A stretch of 64,000 nt of DNA, from contig JAIELH010000001.1 in NCBI GenBank assembly GCA_019753125.1, forward strand, positions 1 through 64,000, read 5' to 3'. This document shows, in pieces, positions 10,095 through 39,436 of this stretch (its first letter is position 1; every line of letters begins with the position of its first letter). The position numbers and the translations under genes are program-made. The DNA comes from Gallionellaceae bacterium. GTDB taxonomy: Bacteria; Pseudomonadota; Gammaproteobacteria; Burkholderiales; Gallionellaceae. The notes beneath the pieces are model-generated. The model had not been told where the DNA came from and made no database searches. It saw nothing but the letters and a program-made list of their open reading frames with translations.

Positions 10095-11374
10095 CTGCCA
10101 AGAATTTCATCAACTTCCATGTGTTGATTTCCCATAGCCCGTCATGCTTGAACCGTGACGACATGAACATGCAGAAAACAGCCGTATTCGGCGGTGTCAA
10201 CCGGGTACGAATTTCCAGCCAGTCACTGAAACATTCGATGCGGAAGAGCAGCTACTATGAAAGCCATTTCGGTTCAGCATCCATACGCACCCGCGAACTT
10301 GAGAAACTGATCCCATTGTTCGTCGAGGAGTTGCGCGATGAGTTCGATCCTGATTTGATCGCAAAAACAATGGAATTGTTCGTTAGAGCCAAGGTCGCAG
10401 ATGACGAATCCGAAGACGCAGATGAACAAGAAGATAACGCCAGTGGTAATGACGAAAAGAGCAAGAAGCTTGCGGTTGCCCCCTGGACACTTGAAGAAAT
10501 TAAAGTCCTCTGCGGCATCGTCAATGAAGTTTCCCTGACCGATGAAGAGATAAGCAAGGCCAGGGAAAAAGCTGCAAAGCAGAAAGAGCCTAAGGGAAAA
10601 GGTAAGAAAAAGAAGTCCGAGCAGGAGTTCATCGACGAGGCATTAACAAAAAAACGGGTCGATGCTGTTAAGAAGAAAATTGACTCCGTGCGCAAGGCGA
10701 TGGCCTCTGCACTGGACATTGTCTTGTCGGGGCGTATGGCGACCTCTGGGCTAATGACTACAGTTGACGGCGCACTCGCAGTAGCCCATGCCATCACCAC
10801 GCACGCGGTTGAGCCGCAAGATGTGGACTGGTTCACCGCCGTGGATGATTTGACAATAGACGCGGGCGAAACCGGAGCGGGTCATTTGGATACCCAGCAA
10901 TTTTCCTCCGGCGTGTTTTATCGCTATGCCAGTCTGAACCTGAAACAGTTGCAAGTGAATCTGGGGTTGCTCGAAAACATCAAGGCGACAGAAACTGCCG
11001 AATCGCGCCAGCGCGCATTGGACATCGCCCGGCATGTATTCCATCTACTCGCTACTGTTGTGCCATCGGCAAAACAGCAATCCTTTGCTGCGCACAATTT
11101 GGCGGACTTTGCCATTACCAGCTTTTCCGACCAGCCAATTTCGCTTGCCAATGCCTTCGAGCAGCCGGTGAAGCGCGATTACAAAGAGGCGGGATTCCTA
11201 AAACCGTCCATCAACTCGTTGTCTGATTATTGGGCGCGCATCCACCGCGCTTATGGCTTGGACGAGCAGGTATGTGCCTTCGCGGTGGAAGATGGCATCA
11301 AGCTGGGCGATAAGCCCGCGCTGGATTCGCTTAAAGCGATGGAAGATTGGATTATTAACGGTGGGAAAGCATAA
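10091..11374 (+). CDS. casC: Cas7e (Cse4/CasC), Cascade backbone, with charged insertion
   Basis: Backbone subunit that polymerises along crRNA. The N-terminus 'FINFHVLISHSPSCLNRDD' and 'GGVNRVRISSQSLKHSMR' are typical of Cas7e, as is 'SSGVFYRYASLNL' in the middle. The protein is 427 residues, longer than the roughly 360 of E. coli CasC. The extra length lies around residues 95-205, where an acidic run ('DDESEDADEQEDNASGNDEK') is followed by a lysine-rich run ('KEPKGKGKKKKSEQ'). The core family motifs on both sides are intact. Confidence 0.93.
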   Translation: MTAKNFINFHVLISHSPSCLNRDDMNMQKTAVFGGVNRVRISSQSLKHSMRKSSYYESHFGSASIRTRELEKLIPLFVEELRDEFDPDLIAKTMELFVRAKVADDESEDADEQEDNASGNDEKSKKLAVAPWTLEEIKVLCGIVNEVSLTDEEISKAREKAAKQKEPKGKGKKKKSEQEFIDEALTKKRVDAVKKKIDSVRKAMASALDIVLSGRMATSGLMTTVDGALAVAHAITTHAVEPQDVDWFTAVDDLTIDAGETGAGHLDTQQFSSGVFYRYASLNLKQLQVNLGLLENIKATETAESRQRALDIARHVFHLLATVVPSAKQQSFAAHNLADFAITSFSDQPISLANAFEQPVKRDYKEAGFLKPSINSLSDYWARIHRAYGLDEQVCAFAVEDGIKLGDKPALDSLKAMEDWIINGGKA

Positions 11375-11384
11375 GGAGTCTGCC

Positions 11385-12065
11385 ATGCCGCGCTATCTCA
11401 TCTTACGGCTGGATGGCCCCATGCAGGCATGGGGTACCCATACCTTTGAGGATTTCCGTCCCTCCAATCTATTCCCCACGCGCAGCGGTTTGCTGGGCTT
11501 GCTTGGAGCTTGTCTGGGCATAGACCGGCTTGACCACACGGGGCTGGAACAGCTTGCCGCCAGTGTCGAATTTACCGTTCGTGCAGATCGGGCAGTGCTG
11601 CGTCAAGATGCTGGGAAACCCATGCTGAAAGCCGCTGTAAAGCTCCCTGATTTTCACACTGTGCTTGCTGCCCGCAAGGTAGATGGCTCGGCCAATAAAA
11701 ATCCCGTGGTGTCACGGCGTGAATATTTGTTCGATGCTGCCTTTACCGTAGCGATTGGTGCAAAACCGGCAGCACCCATCATGCTGGAAACGGTTGCCGA
11801 GGCGCTACGTCGCCCATGTTATACGCCTGTGCTCGGGCGGCGCTCCTGCCCTATCACCCGGCCTTTGCTGGAAGGCTCGCCAGTTGAAGCAAGCGATGCC
11901 AAGGCTGCACTGGCAAGCGCGTTGCCCGTTGGCGGTTTGATTTATGCCGAAGGTGATCTGGAATCTGCGCAGCCCTTGCGCATTCGTGATGTACCCATGC
12001 ATGGGCGCAACCGTCAGTTTGGCACTCGCCAGGTGTACGTGCATAAGGAGGCACCATGTTCCTGA
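11385..12065 (+). CDS. casD: Cas5e (CasD), Cascade 5'-handle subunit
   Basis: A 226-residue RAMP protein that caps the 5' handle of crRNA in Cascade. The start at 11385 follows AAGGAG and gives the canonical 'MPRYLILRLDGPMQAWGTH'; the ORF-track start at 11253 lies inside cas7e. The RAMP glycine region and the C-terminal 'RDVPMHGRNRQFGTRQVY' agree with the family. The 3' end overlaps cas6e by ten bases. Confidence 0.93.
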   Translation: MPRYLILRLDGPMQAWGTHTFEDFRPSNLFPTRSGLLGLLGACLGIDRLDHTGLEQLAASVEFTVRADRAVLRQDAGKPMLKAAVKLPDFHTVLAARKVDGSANKNPVVSRREYLFDAAFTVAIGAKPAAPIMLETVAEALRRPCYTPVLGRRSCPITRPLLEGSPVEASDAKAALASALPVGGLIYAEGDLESAQPLRIRDVPMHGRNRQFGTRQVYVHKEAPCS

Positions 12066-31436: not shown

Positions 31437-31517
31437 GTTCCTAGCCCTTGAGGATGTAAACAGCATAAAATGCGCGCGCATTATGCCCCATTTTCCCGTA
31501 TTTCGAATGCCCCCGGA

Positions 31518-32513
31518 ATGTTTAGCTTTCTGAAAAAAAATTCTCCCGAACCATCGGATGCCAAGCCCGGCAGCGGTTGGGTCGCGCGCCTCAAATCCAG
31601 CCTGACGCGCACCGGCAGCCAACTGACCGACCTGTTCACTCGCGGCGGAAAGATCGACGACGATCTTTATGAAGAACTGGAAACCATCCTGATCACCGCC
31701 GATGTCGGCATGGATGCAACCAGCGCGCTGCTCGCCGACCTGCGCCACCGCGTCAAGGAGCAACGTCTGACCGAAGCGGTGCAACTCAAGGAAGCGCTCG
31801 CGCAATGCCTGCTCAAACTGCTCAAGCCGCTGGCACAACCGCTGCAAGCCGACGCACATAAACCGTTCGTTATCATGTTGTGCGGCGTGAACGGCGCCGG
31901 CAAGACCACGTCGATCGGCAAGCTGGCAAAGCACCTGCAATCCCAAGGCTTATCGGTGCTGCTTGCGGCTGGCGACACGTTCCGCGCCGCCGCGCGCGAA
32001 CAACTGATGACTTGGGGGGAGCGCAACAACGTGACGGTGATCGCGCAGCAGAGCGGCGATGCCGCCGCAGTGATCTACGATGCGGTGCAGGCCGCACAGG
32101 CGCGCAACATCGATGTCGTGCTGGCCGACACCGCCGGGCGGCTGACCACTCAGGCGCATCTGATGGAAGAAATCAAGAAGGTCAAGCGCGTCATCGCCAA
32201 GGCGATGCCCCCAACTTCTACATCTCCAGGAGCTCCGCACGAAGTGCTGCTGGTGCTGGACGCCAACACCGGGCAGAACGCGCTCTCGCAGGTCAAGGCA
32301 TTCGACGAGGCTCTCGGCGTCACCGGCCTGATTCTGACCAAACTGGACGGCACGGCAAAAGGCGGCGTCATCGCTGCGATCGCCCATTCCCACCATCACC
32401 GGGCGCACCCGATCCCGGTGCGCTTTATCGGCGTGGGTGAAGGGCTGGATGATCTGCGCCCGTTTGTTGCAGAGGATTTTGTCGCAGCGCTGCTGGGGTT
32501 GGACGAGCAGTAG
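31518..32513 (+). CDS. ftsY: Signal recognition particle receptor FtsY
   Basis: GTPase that docks SRP-ribosome complexes at the membrane. A short N-terminal acidic/basic region precedes the NG domain: '[17 protein letters not shown]' (G1), '[20 protein letters not shown]' (G3), '[11 protein letters not shown]' (G4/G5). The start at 31518 gives 'MFSFLKKN'. 331 residues is short because the acidic A domain is reduced. ftsE/ftsX, usually the next genes, lie more than 6 kb downstream, beyond an accessory island. Confidence 0.95.
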
Positions 32514-32660
32514 TAAAGATTACTGCGACGCTGACCCCGTATCACTTCACGTATCACTCCATATCACCCTTGGGATTGTTGCGAGCAAAGTGAGCCATGT
32601 CACGTGTAAAAACTATTGTAATGCCGACCCTATATCACTTGTAAAGGCTATTGTGAGTCC
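32512..32660. repeat. Imperfect direct repeats downstream of ftsY
   Basis: 'GTAAAGATTACTGCGACGCT' (32512 on) and 'GTAAAAACTATTGTAATGCC' (32605 on) start a ~35-base imperfect direct repeat, both ending in TATCACTT; a third partial copy, 'GTAAAGGCTATTGTGAG', begins at 32640. They sit precisely at the ftsY-side border of the accessory island. Confidence 0.5.
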
Positions 32661-32672
32661 CATTTAGATTCC

Positions 32673-34037
32673 CTAGAACAAGCTACCAGCTTCTTTGGAA
32701 ATTTTAGCTTTGCCTTTTGTAGATTTCGAAGTGCGGCTCTTTGATTTAGGTCCAGAGTCGCGGCTTTCCAAATAGCCCAGTTGAGCGCCAAGCTTCAGTA
32801 TCTTTTCAGCCTCTCCTAGCAACTTTTCCACATGACTACGTGGCACCAAATCAACAGAATCAAGTCCGCCTTTTCCTTCCATTCGTGCAGCAAAAGGTAC
32901 TTGCGCCAACACACCATTACCAAGATCAATTACTACAAAGCTCCCATCGGCAACGCGGCGTAGCGCTGCTACTTCGCGCGCCCTATGCATTACATGAAGC
33001 TCACAATAATCAACATTTACCTTGAGAATGGCATCAGAAATGGAAGTCTCGACAGCATCAATAAACTTCCGAAAAACAGGGGCGAAATTTTTCGCAAAAT
33101 CCCCACCTCCTTCATGCGCTGACAAATACCCGTACCATACAAATACTCCTGGGAAGTTCTGAGCCAATGGGCTCAATACATGAAAATACGCCCCACTTCC
33201 AGGCAATATTCGATTAGCCAGCGCCGCCACAAAAATTGACTTTTCAATTACAGGGGCATCCAACTTTTGTATTATTTGGACACACTTATCGAATCCCCTC
33301 AATCTATTCTCAAGCGCCCCATCGAACTCTATGAGATAGGGCTGAATATTGGGTAAACGTTGTTTTACTTGTTGGATAATTCCATCCGTTGGATTGTCCG
33401 CCCCCAACACATCAATCAACCGGCTCTCTGATTGGGAGCTCACCAATCTTGTTGCATGATCAATCAAACCGATACAACCAAAAATCTCGCTTTCTAACTC
33501 AACGGAATCCTCATTTCCCAATATCCTTCGCGCATCACGCCACCGCCTCCACACATCTTCCAAGAGAAGGCCATCTGACCTAAAGTTTAATTGCGCGTAG
33601 CAATATGCAAATGTTCTTGACAGCCGACCATAAGAAATCCACTCACTAGAAAGGCTTCCATTAAGGCGAGTAATGAGCTCTCCAACGGCGATCCCGAACA
33701 AAGCCCCAACACTCACAGAGGAAGTCTTTTCTTTATTCACCTGATTACCACTGAGTAATTCTGATTTAATCTTCAGTTGCACAAAAGAACTGACAGGCAA
33801 AGCCCATGGGCGCAACGTACATATGAGAGCGCAAAGATCCTCCATATCCGCATCGCTACCCGATATAACTAGTCGCGCCCGCCCCTGCGCAGAGGGATTC
33901 CATTCGACATCCAGTTCGCCATCTTGGCCAAGCATTTCAACAAGCCCGCAAATATCAGCCTCATCCCCCTTCATTAGCAATGTAACGGCCAGTTGCAGCG
34001 CCTGCTCAACATTCAGCTTATATTTATACATATTCAT
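32673..34037 (-). CDS. Unrecognised protein, third gene of kinase/SF1 NTPase operon
   Basis: About 454 residues; I recognise no family. The chain is predicted mainly helical, with no signal peptide and no convincing membrane span. A hydrophobic/Gly-rich stretch 'SVSVGALFGIAVGELITRLN' lies near residue 110, and the C-terminus ends in a Ser/Lys-rich tail ('SKSRTSKSTKGKAKISKEAG') that could contact nucleic acid or be phosphorylated. The start is uncertain: TTG 34043, ATG 34037 and ATG 34031 are all in frame right after the helicase stop, so translation is coupled. The region is visibly AT-richer than ftsY and ftsEX. Confidence 0.7.
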   Translation of the reverse strand: MNMYKYKLNVEQALQLAVTLLMKGDEADICGLVEMLGQDGELDVEWNPSAQGRARLVISGSDADMEDLCALICTLRPWALPVSSFVQLKIKSELLSGNQVNKEKTSSVSVGALFGIAVGELITRLNGSLSSEWISYGRLSRTFAYCYAQLNFRSDGLLLEDVWRRWRDARRILGNEDSVELESEIFGCIGLIDHATRLVSSQSESRLIDVLGADNPTDGIIQQVKQRLPNIQPYLIEFDGALENRLRGFDKCVQIIQKLDAPVIEKSIFVAALANRILPGSGAYFHVLSPLAQNFPGVFVWYGYLSAHEGGGDFAKNFAPVFRKFIDAVETSISDAILKVNVDYCELHVMHRAREVAALRRVADGSFVVIDLGNGVLAQVPFAARMEGKGGLDSVDLVPRSHVEKLLGEAEKILKLGAQLGYLESRDSGPKSKSRTSKSTKGKAKISKEAGSLF

Positions 34038-34043
34038 CACCAA

Positions 34044-35210
34044 TCAATTGAAAAGGCTACCTAATGTAACCTCTTTGACTTCGTCATCAGCCTTCTGTAT
34101 TGCATCTGACAGATAAGCAGGAACTCGCCCCACCCAATATAACCGCAGAGAAGTTTTCGCCCTGGTTACTGCCGTAAACGCCAATCGTTTTTGGTTCTTC
34201 CGGCCAACAGGCCCGACACTTTCACAGGCTCCCATGTGAACCGCTCTAAACTCCAAACCTTTTGCAGAATGAATAGTTGAAGCGATAACTCTTGTTCCAT
34301 CACTCCAAACGTCATCATCATCCTTTACTCGATACAAAGTCCTGGAAATATCCCCCTGCGACCTCGCCTGACGGCAAAACTCATCAACTTCGTCATTCTT
34401 GGGGAATAAGACCCCAATCAGTTCATCTGGGTAAGCTCTAAGCTGAACTACAATCTCTTCAATAATTTTTTCTACCTGCTTAGAGAAATCCGCACAGACC
34501 TCTTTCTTTACCGACGATGGCATTCTGCTCTCATCGTAATTTGCCATTGCATATGTGTTAGGCATATCTGCTGTGTTAGCAAAAATCGCATCTGCAACCA
34601 AACAGATTTTTTTACCATTCCTAAAGTGTCTTGGCAGCGTCACCTTCTTAGCAACCAGCCCCTCAAATACCTGTATAGCCCCGCCCTCTTGATAAATGCG
34701 CTGATTCTCGTCTCCCGCACCAATAATCACGGCTGATAGCCGAAATAGAACTTTAATCTCTGCTGCCGTGTAATCTTGAATTTCGTCAATCAACAAAACA
34801 TCAAACCGCCCTTCTAGCCCTGGAGATTTATCCAATAAATTTCCAGCCGCGCTTGCCAATCGGTTCCTATACTGAATAAACTTTTCTCCTTCTATGTGAG
34901 GAAGCGATTCATCGTTATCCGCCAGCAACTCCCCAAAAAGATGAACTGCAGTTACTACCTCTTCCGGGTTGATTTTGTATTGAATACCACCGCGCTGGAC
35001 GAAATTTCTCAACGTGGCCGTAAAAGTAACAAAACGTATTCTGCTCTTCCCCTTAGCCCGGAGATATTTTGAGCGCAGTAATAGCACATTTGTTTTCCCG
35101 CTACCTGGCGAGCCTACTATTAGATATGACTCATCAATCGGGATGGCTGTAACAGCATCTTTTTGCTCGCCCTTTAGATCATCCTCGCCAACCCACCAGC
35201 TACCGTCCAT
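34044..35210 (-). CDS. Compact SF1 (UvrD/Rep-like) helicase or NTPase
   Basis: A 388-residue P-loop protein with the UvrD-type motif set: Walker A 'IVGSPGSGKT' (31-40), Walker B 'LLIDEIQDYT' (139-148), motif III 'GDENQRIY' (166-173), motif IV-like 'LPRHFRNGK' (192-200), motif V 'STIHSAKGLEF' (311-321) and motif VI 'AFTAVTRAK' (344-352). It is roughly half the size of UvrD, so the 1B/2B accessory domains are small or absent. It lies two bases after the kinase stop. Such trimmed SF1 proteins occur in defence and signalling contexts; unwinding activity is not assured. Confidence 0.87.
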   Translation of the reverse strand: MDGSWWVGEDDLKGEQKDAVTAIPIDESYLIVGSPGSGKTNVLLLRSKYLRAKGKSRIRFVTFTATLRNFVQRGGIQYKINPEEVVTAVHLFGELLADNDESLPHIEGEKFIQYRNRLASAAGNLLDKSPGLEGRFDVLLIDEIQDYTAAEIKVLFRLSAVIIGAGDENQRIYQEGGAIQVFEGLVAKKVTLPRHFRNGKKICLVADAIFANTADMPNTYAMANYDESRMPSSVKKEVCADFSKQVEKIIEEIVVQLRAYPDELIGVLFPKNDEVDEFCRQARSQGDISRTLYRVKDDDDVWSDGTRVIASTIHSAKGLEFRAVHMGACESVGPVGRKNQKRLAFTAVTRAKTSLRLYWVGRVPAYLSDAIQKADDEVKEVTLGSLFN

Positions 35211-35212
35211 AA

Positions 35213-36511
35213 TTACCCCGCTGAAGAAATCTCATGGGAATAAGATTCTATCCACCTATCCAGAATATCGCAGACCAGTTGCTCTGCTTTATTCATTAGC
35301 CAACGCTCACTTAACTGCCCCTGCTCTGTTTGAACAATATCTCCCAGTTCTATCCGCAAAGAGATTTCTGAGCTATCTATAAATTCACGCCGTATATTGA
35401 ACACCAACACCCCCATCGGGTTGACATCTTCAGCCTTCCGTTTCAACTCGCAGCGAATTGATACTTCAAAGGCAGAAATATCCTTATTCGGCGGAGGGAT
35501 TTGTGCATATGGAAATAATGATTCATCTCGCACAATTCTCGTAATTGCCTCGCAAACATGATCCGTCGCGTTGAAGAAATATTGAGCATCAATCTTCTTC
35601 TCCTGAATGTTACCGCCACTTTCACGCTTGGCTTGCTGCTCGGATACATACGCCAGCCTACGGCCAATCGCTTTAACCCTATCATCTACCACAACCTTAG
35701 CCTGTCCAAAAAAATCATTCCAAGACACATTCTTTACGCGATGACGTGGGTCTTTCGCCAAGCAGGAGTCAGCTAAAGCAGCCCAATAGTCCATTTGCTT
35801 GTCAACTACAATATCAGGAGTTACAAACTCTACTGCCTTATAAAGAGCCGCTTTGGGCTTACTGTGTTCTTCAAACAAGGGTTTTTTCATAAGCATATCG
35901 TGCAATACCCCGCCTATTTGATAAAACGTGATTGCACGATGACCATCCAAATCTCTTTTTTCTTTCCGAAGCAAAAATTCAGGCGGCGCATATCTTAGTG
36001 TTCCCACAAAGCGCCCCTCTGAAACATCTTGGCTTGGTTCTATTGGTTGCATTACACCGAGATCAAGTAGCTTTAGTAATTTGAAATCTTCTGAAACATG
36101 GATATTTGCAGGTTTGATGTCGCGATGGACAACGCCAAGCTCTTCCAAGTCTTTTGCTGCCTTTGCAAGCTGTCCAATAAGACTTGGAATTGCCTCATCA
36201 GGTAATTGACCTATCGATTTTTCCAGTGATGGCCAGGGCAAATACTCCATAACCAAAAAATATGTTTCTTCCTCATCATCATAGCCACCGTCAAAAATCT
36301 TTATTAAATTTTCAATCTTATGGTCACGCAGTTCGAGCTGCCTGCTAATCCGCGTTGTTTCTCCTCCGCCAAACTCTTCAAGCGCAGCTTTATCGAAAAT
36401 TTTAAGGGCAAATTTTCCGCCATCTCTCGTAGCTTCGTAGACAGTTGCAGACCCTCCCTTTCCAAGAGGGGTCTGTTCTGAATATTCATATTCTCTAAAC
36501 TTTCTTTTCAT
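35213..36511 (-). CDS. Hanks-type Ser/Thr protein kinase with unknown C-terminal domain
   Basis: A 432-residue cytoplasmic kinase. The Gly loop 'LGKGGSATVYEA' (16-27), catalytic Lys37 ('FALKIF'), 'VVHRDIKPANI' (HRD at 129-131), DLG at 150-152 in place of DFG, and 'GTLRYAPPEF' in the activation segment are all present, so the enzyme should be active. Residues ~285-432 form a separate domain that I do not recognise, without transmembrane helix or PASTA repeats. GGAGG precedes the ATG. It is the first gene of a three-gene operon with an SF1 NTPase and an unknown protein. Confidence 0.9.
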   Translation of the reverse strand: MKRKFREYEYSEQTPLGKGGSATVYEATRDGGKFALKIFDKAALEEFGGGETTRISRQLELRDHKIENLIKIFDGGYDDEEETYFLVMEYLPWPSLEKSIGQLPDEAIPSLIGQLAKAAKDLEELGVVHRDIKPANIHVSEDFKLLKLLDLGVMQPIEPSQDVSEGRFVGTLRYAPPEFLLRKEKRDLDGHRAITFYQIGGVLHDMLMKKPLFEEHSKPKAALYKAVEFVTPDIVVDKQMDYWAALADSCLAKDPRHRVKNVSWNDFFGQAKVVVDDRVKAIGRRLAYVSEQQAKRESGGNIQEKKIDAQYFFNATDHVCEAITRIVRDESLFPYAQIPPPNKDISAFEVSIRCELKRKAEDVNPMGVLVFNIRREFIDSSEISLRIELGDIVQTEQGQLSERWLMNKAEQLVCDILDRWIESYSHEISSAG

Positions 36512-36553
36512 GCATCCTCCATCCTTGCGGACACCAGCAATGTAAAACGGAGT

Positions 36554-36569
36554 CAGGCCACGGTTTCTT
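36554..36569. repeat. 'CAGGCCACGGTTTCTT' motif, copy 1
   Basis: Sixteen bases repeated exactly at 37351-37366. Similar 'GGGGACAGGCCACGGTTTC' sequences occur around REP-associated Y1 transposase elements in other genomes (recalled, not searched). No transposase gene is present here. Confidence 0.5.
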
Positions 36570-36625
36570 GATTATTCCGCAGCGTGAACAATCAAGAGCG
36601 ATTGGTGTCAGCATCGCAATTGTCT

Positions 36626-36976
36626 TCATTCATGCACTACCAGCGCTTCGCGGGTGATCTCAACAAACGTGGCGGATGCGAAGGTTGCTTCGATCCCGTT
36701 CAAATTGGCGCGGAGAATTTTTTCCAGTTCCTTGTTGGAAATGTTGCCGGTTGAGATCAGCAACAGCGGCGGTTCGCCGGTGACCAGAAAGGACTGTACA
36801 AAATCTGCATCCTTGCTGATGACGATGCGCCCTTCCTGCATGGCGCGTGCGATGAGTTCGCTATCCTGGGTGTGGTTCTTTTTGGGAAGGTCGAGGGTGT
36901 GCAGCGCATCGTGCCCCGCCTCTTTCAGCCAACTGGCGAAGCGCCGGGGAAGTTGCGCATCGACCAGGAATTTCAT
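36626..36976 (-). CDS. DUF5615 PIN-like toxin
   Basis: A 116-residue PIN-like protein: 'MKFLVDAQLPRRFASWLKEA' at the start, 'LPKKNHTQDSELIARAMQEG' and 'VISKDADFVQSFLVTGEPPL', the DUF5615 pattern with acidic residues D6, D43-E45 and D61-D63. It overlaps the DUF433 gene by four bases (ATGA). Together they make a VapBC-like type II toxin-antitoxin pair, with this as the presumed ribonuclease. Confidence 0.85.
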   Translation of the reverse strand: MKFLVDAQLPRRFASWLKEAGHDALHTLDLPKKNHTQDSELIARAMQEGRIVISKDADFVQSFLVTGEPPLLLISTGNISNKELEKILRANLNGIEATFASATFVEITREALVVHE

Positions 36977-37197
36977 GCGGCCAGACGTTCGAGCCGTTTT
37001 ACGTGCGTCATTCGCGCGGCATAGGAAAGCGCGGCCAATATGTCTTCACGCTCGAGGTCTTCGTAGTCTTGCAGAATTTCATCTGTGGTCATGCCGCTGG
37101 CCAGCCATTCCAGCACGTTCTCGACGGGATAACGCAGACCGCGTATGCAGGGCTTGCCGTGGCATACGGCGGGATCGATGGTGATGCGGTCGCTCAT
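36973..37197 (-). CDS. DUF433 antitoxin
   Basis: A 74-residue helix-turn-helix protein: 'ITIDPAVCHGKPCIRGLRYP' is the hallmark of DUF433, followed by 'LEWLASGMTTDEILQDYEDL'. The start at 37197 follows GGAGG; the track start at 37221 lies upstream of that site. It precedes and overlaps the DUF5615 toxin gene. Confidence 0.87.
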   Translation of the reverse strand: MSDRITIDPAVCHGKPCIRGLRYPVENVLEWLASGMTTDEILQDYEDLEREDILAALSYAARMTHVKRLERLAA

Positions 37198-37271
37198 TTT
37201 TCCTCCTGCTCGAAAATTCATGGGGGAATCTTACACCAGCTTGCATTCATTGTGGCCGGACGCTCCCCTCC

Positions 37272-37332
37272 CCGTCAATAGACCAAAATGCATGGTTTCC
37301 CCAGCCCATGCATTTCAACATGGCGCGAACAA
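37272..37332. repeat. 61-base dispersed repeat, copy 1
   Basis: Begins 'CCGTCAATAGACC' and ends 'GAACAA'; 43 of 61 positions match 38539-38599 without a gap. It contains the inner palindrome ATGCATGG...CCCATGCAT. The gap 37198-37374 holds only this and the 'CAGGCCACGG' motif. Confidence 0.6.
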
Positions 37333-37374
37333 TTGAATAACAATTGGGGACAGGCCACGGTTTCTTTGTAGTCA

Positions 37375-37577
37375 TCATTTGATCCCACCCCCTAACCAAG
37401 CATCCGAAGTCAGCGGCTTCTTCAGCGTCGGCAGTGTCTCTTCCAGCCAAGCCAGCGCGAGCTTTTTTTCTTGCGCCACAGCGATTCGCCCAGCACCTTC
37501 TTCATCATCTGTATCGAGGCGCTGCTCCTGACAATGTTGTTCCAGAATTCGGGGAGGGTGGTGACGGGGAATTTCAT
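37375..37577 (-). pseudogene. Small gene after fic, interrupted by a frameshift
   Basis: An ATG overlapping the fic stop (ATGA) opens a frame 'MKFPVTTLPEFWNNIVRSSA...LGESLWRKKK'. At a run of seven A (minus strand, near 37463-37472) the sense-like continuation shifts to another frame, 'LALAWLEETLPTLKKPLTSD'. Joined, they would give a protein of about 66 residues. I do not recognise the family. It could be a real indel, a sequencing error, or slippage at the A-run. Confidence 0.5.
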
Positions 37578-38215
37578 TTTGCGGGCTCCGCTTTTTGCAA
37601 ACCTCGCAGGACGATCTGTTGCAATTTGCTGCTGTCGGCACGTTGCACGCACTGGATGGAAGCCTCGATGTAGGCGTTCAGGCCGGAAGGGCCTTCGGCA
37701 AGCGCCGCGCTGTAATCGATGGGTTCGTAGCCGTTGTATACGGCGATGAGATCGAAGAACAGGCGGGTGATGCGCCCGTTGAGTTCGTAAAACGGATGCA
37801 GTGCGATCAGCTCGGACTGGTAATGGGAGAGACGTTCGGCAAATTTTTCCGTCGTCCAGCCTGCAGCCTGTTTCAGGTATTGTTCTTGTTCCAGTTCGCG
37901 GAAGATGCGGCGGGCTTCCTGTTCAAGGTGGGCAGCGCGGCAGAACAGGGAGCCGCCCTTGCTCATGTCCACGGTGCGGTACCGGCCTGCCCATTCGTAT
38001 ATGGTTTCATAGGTGTCGCGGTGCAACGCTTTGAAATAGTCCCCGTCGAAGCGGACGGAGGAGTCGAGTTCGGTGATGAAGCGGGTGTAGGCTTGTTGCA
38101 GCAGGGTTGCTTCTACTTCGTGCAACAGATCCGGCGATTCTATTCCCAGACGGTTTCTGGGAATGTCGGTGCCGGTGAGGTAAATCTCACTTTCGGTGAA
38201 CTGATACTTGGACAC
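37574..38215 (-). CDS. Fic-domain protein (putative AMP-transferase toxin)
   Basis: A 213-residue class I Fic protein. The active-site loop is 'HPFYELNGRITRLFFD', matching HPFx(D/E)(G/A)NGRxxR except that Leu replaces the small Gly/Ala. The catalytic His, Asn and both Arg are kept. 'YETIYEWAGRYRTVDMSKGG' is the usual flap region. It overlaps the small antitoxin gene upstream by 29 bases. Such proteins transfer AMP to targets such as gyrase; the target here is unknown. Confidence 0.9.
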   Translation of the reverse strand: MSKYQFTESEIYLTGTDIPRNRLGIESPDLLHEVEATLLQQAYTRFITELDSSVRFDGDYFKALHRDTYETIYEWAGRYRTVDMSKGGSLFCRAAHLEQEARRIFRELEQEQYLKQAAGWTTEKFAERLSHYQSELIALHPFYELNGRITRLFFDLIAVYNGYEPIDYSAALAEGPSGLNAYIEASIQCVQRADSSKLQQIVLRGLQKAEPAK

Positions 38216-38345
38216 GGTGCTGTTCCATCAGGGCTTGAGCCTGCTTTTTGACTGCGGTGGATTGCACGGGTTTGCAACCCTCGATCCGCATCGAGGTCTG
38301 AACAGCTTGGGCGATTTTCCGGTTCAGGCTGGTGCTGACTTGCAT
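38187..38345 (-). CDS. VbhA-like Fic antitoxin
   Basis: A 52-residue protein, too short for many gene finders. 'QTSMRIEGCKPV' contains the inhibitory [S/T]xxxE[G/N] helix that blocks ATP binding by class I Fic toxins. The start at 38345 follows GGGAG seven bases upstream; the track's 38372 start has no such site. It overlaps fic, giving a complete FicTA module. Confidence 0.85.
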   Translation of the reverse strand: MQVSTSLNRKIAQAVQTSMRIEGCKPVQSTAVKKQAQALMEQHRVQVSVHRK

Positions 38346-38538
38346 CGTTTTTCTCCCAAAATAACCCGCCATTCCGGCGAGTTTTGTTGCCGCAGATTAT
38401 ATCAAATTATGCCGTGTTACGGCCTGTTCCGTCACTTCACCCCCGCCACCTAGCCAACGCGAAACGTGGGGCAGCATCACAATATCTCCCGCGTTTTATG
38501 CCATCTGCCAATACGCAATGTTCCAATTGCAGGCATAT

Positions 38539-38599
38539 CCGTCAATAGACCGAAATATATAGATATTCCGGCCTATGCATTCTCTAATGCCCGGAACAA
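38539..38599. repeat. 61-base dispersed repeat, copy 2
   Basis: Ungapped relative of 37272-37332. It lies in the 38346-38740 gap before ftsE, which otherwise holds no gene I can support; that gap is the right border of the accessory island and must contain the ftsEX promoter. Confidence 0.6.
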
Positions 38600-38740
38600 C
38601 CAACTCCGCCTCCAGATACGAAGACGGGCACAATAAATTGCTTTCTCTGCAGCGAGCCGCTAGCATCCGCAGAAGCAACGATCATGAAAAATCACCTCCA
38701 CATTGATGAAGCACAGCATGGTTATGGTGTTACCCGCAAA

Positions 38741-39436
38741 ATGATCTCCTTCAATCAGGTCCACAAACGCTACCCCAGCGGCTATGAGGCATTGAAGAAT
38801 GTCTCGTTCGACATCGCCGAAGGCGAGATGGTGTTTCTCACCGGACACTCCGGCGCGGGCAAGAGCACCTTGCTCAAGCTGATTGCCGCGATCGAGCGCC
38901 CGAATTCCGGCAGTGTGCTGGTGAACAACCAGAATGTCGGCGCGCTCAAAAGCGGCGCGTTGCCTTACCTGCGCCGCAACCTCGGCATTGTCTTCCAGGA
39001 TCACAAGTTGCTGTTTGACCGTAACGTATTCGACAACGTGCTGTTGCCGCTGCAAATTTGCGGCTTCGATCATCGCGAGAGCAGCAAGCGCGTGCGCGCC
39101 GCGCTGGACAAGGTCAACCTGCTCAAACGGGAAAAAGCCAACCCCATCGCGCTGTCCGGCGGCGAGCAGCAGCGCTTGTGCATCGCCCGCGCAATCGTGA
39201 ACCGCCCTTCCATCCTGCTTGCCGACGAGCCGACCGGGAACCTGGATGCCGAATATGCGCAAGAGATCATGGCGATATTCAAATCCTTTCATCAGGTCGG
39301 CGTCACACTATTGATCTCGACACACGACGAAAGCATCTTGCAAGACAGCGGGGTACGAATTCTCACTCTCAGGCACGGAGAGTTGCAACACAACCCGTCT
39401 TCCAATACATCAGCAAGCTCAGGGCAGCAGGCATGA
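38741..39436 (+). CDS. ftsE: Cell-division ABC transporter ATPase FtsE
   Basis: ATP-binding partner of FtsX, which links cytokinesis to cell-wall hydrolase activation. Walker A 'LTGHSGAGKSTLLKL', signature 'LSGGEQQRLCIARAIV', Walker B 'ILLADEPTGNLD' and 'ISTHD' switch His are intact. The start at 38741 ('MISFNQVHKRYPSGYEAL') fits the family at 231 residues; the 38684 start is unsupported. It overlaps ftsX by four bases. Confidence 0.95.
   Translation: MISFNQVHKRYPSGYEALKNVSFDIAEGEMVFLTGHSGAGKSTLLKLIAAIERPNSGSVLVNNQNVGALKSGALPYLRRNLGIVFQDHKLLFDRNVFDNVLLPLQICGFDHRESSKRVRAALDKVNLLKREKANPIALSGGEQQRLCIARAIVNRPSILLADEPTGNLDAEYAQEIMAIFKSFHQVGVTLLISTHDESILQDSGVRILTLRHGELQHNPSSNTSASSGQQA

Follow-up and report, generated by a model that had tools for sequence, protein, structure and literature searches.

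We analysed a window of 64,000 nucleotides (nt), namely positions 1 to 64,000 of contig JAIELH010000001.1 from a Gallionellaceae bacterium (assembly GCA_019753125.1). Between ftsY and ftsE, this window carries three adjacent genes that encode a Hanks-type protein kinase, a compact superfamily 1 (SF1) nucleoside triphosphatase (NTPase) and a third protein, here called the trio (Table 1). The original prediction, made from the sequence, had described three codirectional genes with gaps of 2 and 0 to 6 nt, a ribosome-binding site at the first gene and a block richer in AT than its surroundings, and all of these features were borne out. The coordinates were verified, and all three reading frames are intact. 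The kinase and NTPase genes are separated by 2 nt, while the gap between the NTPase gene and the third gene is 0 nt with a TTG start and 6 nt with an ATG start. The G+C content of the trio is 0.448, compared with 0.539 for the window and 0.616 for ftsY, and a value this low was found in 1 of 301 sliding windows of that size. A scan for promoters and terminators gave no clear excess over shuffled sequences and was not used.

Table 1. Features of the trio, the insert that holds it and the flanking genes (window positions)
Feature	Position	Strand	Details
Protein kinase gene	35213-36511	minus	432 amino acids (aa), ATG start; kinase domain ~1-267, linker helices, C-terminal alpha-beta-alpha domain ~302-431
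Compact SF1 (UvrD/HelD/GajB-like) NTPase gene	34044-35210	minus	388 aa
Third-protein gene	32673-34043	minus	456 aa; family without Pfam/NCBIfam/PADLOC match
Ribosome-binding region of kinase gene	36512-36526	minus	GGAGG at 36516-36520, 4 nt before ATG; sequence read directly
Insert (island), 6.2 kb	32514-38739		between ftsY and ftsE; ends from DNA homology to relatives
ftsY, left edge of insert	31470-32513	plus	tblastn against relatives
ftsE, right edge of insert	38740-39436	plus	homology to relatives starts ~38740
DUF5615 (PIN-like) toxin-type gene, island neighbour	36626-36976	minus	Pfam E 3.6e-25
DUF433 antitoxin-type gene, island neighbour	36973-37221	minus	Pfam E 5.3e-28
Fic-domain protein, island neighbour	37574-38215	minus	Pfam Fic E 1.6e-13

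The trio is one conserved operon-like unit. A tblastn comparison of the window NTPase with plasmids revealed full-length homologues (37 to 38% identical) in Cupriavidus and Rhizobium, with a kinase upstream and a protein of about 457 to 460 aa downstream; tblastn of the third protein against plasmids found none. On the Cupriavidus plasmid the third gene (L022:10149-11522) is annotated as 10794-11522, about 645 nt too short, and the trio is therefore hidden in the public annotation. We scanned genome contigs with an NTPase alignment and found 33 loci with a full-length or nearly full-length match (L025 to L057), to which the window NTPase is 34 to 40% identical, nearly always over its full length. 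Among phage records, the NTPase gave only partial matches to a Nitrincola phage helicase. The kinase and the third gene were sought with hidden Markov models in the open reading frames (ORFs) of the 33 loci. The third gene was present in all 33 and the kinase in 31 of the 32 testable loci; L034 is interrupted by a contig end, and the kinase of L050 is split by a frameshift. In L029, which comes from an Acidobacteriaceae metagenome-assembled genome (MAG), a 522-aa P-loop ATPase with a weak AAA_16 match (L029:8396-9964) occupies the kinase position, and this locus is a possible variant of the system. The genes follow the order kinase, NTPase, third gene on one strand, with overlaps or with gaps within about 20 nt, and kinase and NTPase are encoded separately in all trio loci. 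The same scan also returned L059 to L104, HelD/UvrD-type relatives that are not trio members and that served as an imperfect neighbour control. The window third protein by itself gave no match to genome contigs because the family is too divergent (10 to 22% identity), an obstacle that the NTPase alignment overcame.

We also searched with a third-protein profile in two sets of 399 genomes, one drawn from the phylum and one from a single family within it (that of G478). This profile matched five genomes (the bacterium's own, G478, G702, G744 and G825), two of which were already represented among the loci above; G478 and G825 appear to correspond to L049 and L046, so they are not independent loci. 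Occurrence is patchy, with the third protein in 2 of the 399 phylum genomes, the bacterium's own included. With the NTPase profile, the phylum draw yielded two strong matches, each part of a trio. Four weaker matches lay in longer proteins (about 120 bits in G316, G321, G257 and G430, with open frames of 612 to 664 aa), which are other helicases. The original prediction had named co-occurrence in varied genomes near defence genes as the test of a system and scattered homologues, or a match to a non-defence pathway that already has a name, as the outcomes that would speak against one. Co-occurrence proved near absolute in both search directions, and rather than being scattered, the third-protein matches lay in complete trios in 5 of 5 genomes. 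Furthermore, the pairwise identities of each protein rise and fall with those of the other two (rho 0.63, 0.68 and 0.72, with 0 of 1000 permutations as high), most tightly for the NTPase and the third protein (rho 0.72). The loci are spread over Pseudomonadota, Acidobacteriota, Planctomycetota, Thermodesulfobacteriota and Binatota, and these phyla are intermixed in the NTPase tree, where the nearest relatives of the window NTPase are those of Pseudomonas and a Holophaga MAG, on a long branch. Conservation of the trio across five phyla is far beyond chance, and the patchy distribution, together with trees that mix phyla, fits with transfer of the trio as a unit. Directly after the trio, four loci carry a fourth small gene (L025:12472-12930, L026, L034:2677-3195 and L038:12555-13067) of 152 to 172 aa that Pfam does not recognise; in L025 it matches phrog_11975.

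The kinase matches Pfam Pkinase with an E value of 1.4e-28 (100 bits). Its motifs, earlier read as intact, are so in the window (K37, HRD at 129-131, N136 and DLG at 150-152), and K37, H129-R130-D131, N136, D150, G152 and the APE-type Glu E178 are invariant in 28 family members. The protein thus has the features of a Hanks kinase (VAIK Lys, HRD, DFG-type Asp and APE-type Glu), and the invariance of the catalytic residues indicates that kinase activity is under selection. The window kinase lacks a conserved N-terminal segment that is present in most members. In its AlphaFold (AF2) model (predicted local distance difference test score [pLDDT] 80, predicted template modelling score [pTM] 0.65), the C-terminal domain is alpha-beta-beta-beta-beta-alpha. 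Foldseek with this model returned kinases, with full-length AMPK alpha chains above isolated kinase domains and KA1-autoinhibited MARK1 also among the matches. The C-terminal domain may be a KA1-like, autoinhibitory one, a lead that comes from this comparison of the whole model.

The NTPase matches Pfam UvrD-helicase and UvrD_C_2. It had been described as a half-length protein with intact UvrD-type motifs, and we confirmed this: Walker A GSPGSGKTN, DEIQDY, Q170, HFRNG, SAKGLEF and TAVTRAK are intact in the window protein, and the residues of motifs I to VI are invariant or nearly so in 30 members, as is characteristic of SF1. In profile comparisons, its RecA-like cores align with HelD, UvrD, PcrA and GajB. 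Family members are 371 to 426 aa long, compared with about 720 aa for UvrD, and this length suggests that most accessory-domain sequence is absent. The C-terminal end carries a [LIVAM]F motif (e.g., DLFG) in 33 of 33 members tested, with GSLFN in the window; we looked for a beta-clamp motif in the NTPase tail, and it is absent.

The third protein had resisted placement in the original prediction and resisted it again here: there was no Pfam, NCBIfam or PADLOC match even at E = 1, and the weak Pfam or PADLOC matches of single members (Tachystatin_B, IMPDH, Cas11 and MTase_II) were judged to be chance. By these comparisons it is a new family. An AlphaFold (AF2) model of good confidence (pLDDT 83.8, pTM 0.79) predicts a small N-terminal beta part, a mostly helical body, a beta hairpin at 369-383, a helix at 402-421 and a basic, disordered C-terminal tail. 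Foldseek found no match to this model in the PDB or among viral structures (BFVD), with best E values of 0.19 and 0.088, respectively, and low TM-scores. W168, W303 and E348 are invariant in 33 members, whose identity to the window protein is just 11 to 22%. The last 30 residues are Lys/Arg-rich in 33 of 33 members (27% versus 10% in the body), while Ser/Thr enrichment of the tail, which would have argued for phosphorylation sites, is absent (14.6% versus 14.2%). In 9 of 34 tails we found Q-x-[DE]-[LM]-[FY], against a mean of 0.12 in shuffled tails; these tail counts include related sequences, which reduces their independence. The motif resembles bacterial sliding-clamp-binding peptides. The window tail ends in GSLF, without the Gln of the clamp-type motif.

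The trio is horizontally mobile and is found on plasmids, in prophages and in defence-rich islands. Two viral contigs carry the complete trio within prophage structural gene clusters, one between Mu-like portal/minor-head genes and the head protease (L145) and the other between P2-like head/tail genes and an endolysin (L146). In G744 the trio follows a terminase-like gene, as judged by eye. On the Rhizobium conjugative plasmid, it adjoins Hachiman (DUF1837 and a DEAD helicase), with DarT and RelA/SpoT-type genes nearby. Several integrases and invertases are among the trio neighbours (PHROGs). PADLOC models matched among the 131 nearest genes include GajA, GajB, HamA, HamB, HsdR/type I restriction and RtcR/CARF. 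These 131 genes matched 226 PADLOC families (best E 0), compared with 18 families (best E 1.1e-42) for an equal number of genes flanking unrelated SF1 helicases, a qualitative contrast because PADLOC families are redundant and the control comes from other taxa.

In the window, the trio lies in an insert. DNA homology to relatives breaks off at about 32507, at the end of ftsY, and restarts at about 38740; thus, approximately 6.2 kb was inserted. ftsY and ftsE are adjacent in 19 of the 22 same-genus genomes that have ftsE (gap of -9 to 207 bp) and lie together in 7 of 7 genomes from other families of the order (gaps of up to 533 bp). Besides the trio, the insert contains small ORFs and the neighbours that had been taken for toxin-antitoxin pairs, which we identified as a DUF433/DUF5615 (PIN-like) pair and a Fic protein beside a 61-aa ORF. 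The three exceptions to ftsY-ftsE adjacency are G017, G007 and G019. In G019, ftsY was not found within the fetched stretch. In G017 and G007 the junction is occupied by different inserts, and the 3' end of ftsY is present twice (the extra copy spans 35 and 64 codons, respectively). Elements that insert into the 3' end of a gene would be expected to leave such a duplication. The G017 insert carries a NERD-UvrD helicase (L135:6268-8085) and the G007 insert an AAA_15/AAA_21 (OLD-like) ATPase (L137:13718-14983), both of kinds typical of defence loci. Because of these other inserts with duplicated ftsY 3' ends, the junction looks like an integration hotspot in the genus.

Some further observations concern the right end of the insert. 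About 85 to 180 bp just upstream of ftsE are common to G019, G017, G007 and the window. The longest ftsE ORF (from 38684) starts in insert sequence; since homology begins near 38740, where the homologous start lies, this ORF is ftsE extended by insert sequence. ftsE may be expressed from the right end of the insert. A 61-nt repeat (70% identical, beginning CCGTCAATAGACC) occurs at 37272-37332, upstream of the DUF433 gene, and at 38539-38599, upstream of ftsE, and short pieces of it are present at two other places in the genome.

We compared the trio with known systems. No named system with this trio was found in PADLOC 2023, NCBIfam, Pfam or the literature covered (a body that takes in little of the subscription papers and preprints), in agreement with the original prediction. 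KKP (PfkA-PfkB-PfpC) is carried by P2-like and Mu-like prophages and mobile elements, and the release of its kinase toxicity during infection arrests growth (PMC11341870). The trio resembles KKP as a three-gene module that has a Hanks kinase and is carried by P2-like and Mu-like prophages. However, KKP has two kinases (with CSD and FHA domains) and a PP2C-type phosphatase, whereas the trio has one kinase with no CSD or FHA match (in Pfam, the window kinase matches kinase-type families only), no phosphatase match in the third family and, in addition, a new protein and an SF1 NTPase. Gabija (GajA-GajB; PMC10681800, PMC10822852) shares with the trio an SF1/UvrD-like NTPase, there as a subunit of a multiprotein defence system. 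GajB is UvrD-like, about 500 aa long, has two RecA-like and two accessory subdomains and showed no detectable unwinding (PMC10681800). It is among the closest PADLOC profiles and solved structures to the trio NTPase, but the latter falls about 100 residues short of the solved GajB chains, the PADLOC GajB model matches it only in pieces (1.9e-18), and Gabija lacks the kinase that the trio has. The third protein and 32 homologues gave no Pfam or PADLOC match to GajA (an OLD-type nuclease), AAA or TOPRIM.

We also compared other kinase- or helicase-based systems. Mokosh (MkoA-MkoB), which combines a kinase with an SF1 helicase, has the two fused in MkoA, whereas they are separate genes in the trio. 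The PADLOC MkoA model aligns with residues 7-212 of the trio kinase only and is outside the best 25 matches of the NTPase, and no third protein matched a PLD-type MkoB nuclease domain. BREX PglW, PD-T4-6 and MADS Mad6 are defence-associated kinases with the same catalytic fold as the trio kinase. However, the similarity to all three is generic to kinase domains and, for PglW of BREX type 2 and for Mad6, lies far below the curated cut-offs (28.3 bits against an NCBIfam cut-off of 990 and 39 against 460, respectively), and the trio is without NERD. PD-T4-6 is a stand-alone gene and at best scores 94 bits, below the 100 of Pfam Pkinase, whereas our kinase was in a trio at every locus found. For PADLOC C3a187/C3a189 (NERD-UvrD with a kinase), the trio NTPase has no NERD match, and the C3a187 alignment covers the UvrD part only. 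In Hachiman (HamA-HamB), the helicase senses genome damage and frees the effector (PMC12278908), and in CapK-CapS, found in immune loci, the kinase CapK is activated by single-stranded DNA (PMC13373217). Their likeness to the trio is a functional analogy; HamB belongs to the DEAD-type helicases, CapK is similar to anti-sigma-factor kinases, and neither is related to the trio proteins. Thus, judged by sequence, the trio lacks the defining features of Gabija, Mokosh, KKP, BREX PglW, PD-T4-6 and the PADLOC NERD-UvrD/kinase pair. We rate it as a probable mobile defence module of the kinase- and helicase-based kind, with a new protein family as its third component.

Our reading is that the trio is an undescribed, mobile three-gene system that most likely acts against phages or foreign DNA, to which we assign a probability of roughly 0.6, the role resting on context. 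The broader claim of a function in defence or in conflict between elements, which draws on the same genomic context, is quite probable. For the wiring, we propose an order of signalling in which DNA is surveyed before the kinase acts; this order is tentative and is modelled on the precedents of Hachiman, KKP, CapK and GajB. In this scheme, DNA or replication intermediates would be surveyed by a complex of the NTPase, as the sensor motor, and the third protein, as a scaffold whose basic tail touches nucleic acid. Disturbance of replication or of DNA ends by a phage would cause this complex to release or activate the kinase, which would phosphorylate host or phage proteins so that growth and phage production stop, as in KKP. 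The roles suggested in the original prediction (sensor, signaller, effector or adaptor) are likewise inferred. Because some third-protein tails have Q-x-[DE]-[LM]-[FY] motifs, the complex may dock on the DNA polymerase clamp and turn phage disturbance of the fork into kinase signalling, although such docking would not be universal, since the window tail lacks the Gln. That kinase, minimal SF1 motor and new-fold protein constitute a surveillance complex at replication forks, and with it a categorically new immune mechanism, is something we entertain with little confidence.

Several observations weigh against this reading. No nuclease, protease or membrane element can be recognised in the third protein, so that no effector is visible. 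Defence neighbours are named for a minority of loci, with control loci from other taxa, and prophage carriage also fits superinfection control or phage regulation. In addition, L029 retains the NTPase and the third protein but has another P-loop ATPase where the kinase would be, so the kinase may be an exchangeable regulator rather than the output. A rival reading keeps the defence role but reverses the wiring: the NTPase, together with the third protein, would be the effector against foreign DNA, and the kinase would serve as a sensor or safety switch and license the two by phosphorylating them (for example, on the tail of the third protein). L029 slightly favours this arrangement, which is unlikely in itself and nearly as likely as the kinase-output wiring. 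It would account for the NTPase and third protein being the pair that co-varies most tightly and stays together in L029, and the Lys/Arg-rich ends of all 33 third proteins and the clamp-type motifs in some of them are in keeping with it. However, neither a nuclease motif nor any other effector motif is seen in the third protein, the NTPase falls far short of UvrD in length and probably lacks most accessory-domain sequence, its relative GajB showed no unwinding (PMC10681800), the tail is not enriched in Ser/Thr, and only one locus is without the kinase.

The trio could also serve the mobile element that carries it, as a kinase-based toxin-antitoxin or prophage-control module (for stabilisation or superinfection exclusion); phage defence would then be a by-product, as reported for KKP. 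Carriage by Mu-like and P2-like prophages parallels the placement of KKP (PMC11341870), and the window trio adjoins toxin-antitoxin-type genes. We nevertheless regard this as rather improbable: there is no phosphatase or other antitoxin-like member, most loci are outside recognisable prophage structural clusters, and a set of three proteins of enzyme size would be large for a simple toxin-antitoxin pair. A phospho-regulated host module for DNA repair or stress response is less probable still. UvrD/HelD-like NTPases do act in repair and transcription recycling, and kinases regulate stress responses, but sporadic occurrence (2 of 399 phylum genomes), transfer between phyla, carriage by plasmids and prophages and defence neighbours are unlike housekeeping genes. 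To the idea that three unrelated genes are neighbours in an island by chance, we give practically no credence. Nothing was found in its favour, and it is refuted by the order and spacing kept in all full-length loci.

The reading of the trio as a mobile system against phages or foreign DNA matters for the following reasons. The trio joins kinases and SF1 NTPases, both recurrent in bacterial immunity, with a family that has no known relatives and that no solved fold matches. As the three genes co-occur strictly in five phyla and are carried by prophages and plasmids, they form a defined candidate that can be cloned. If the defence role is true, a single compact operon would couple the surveillance of DNA to phosphorylation on Ser/Thr, and a new structural family would be represented by the third protein.

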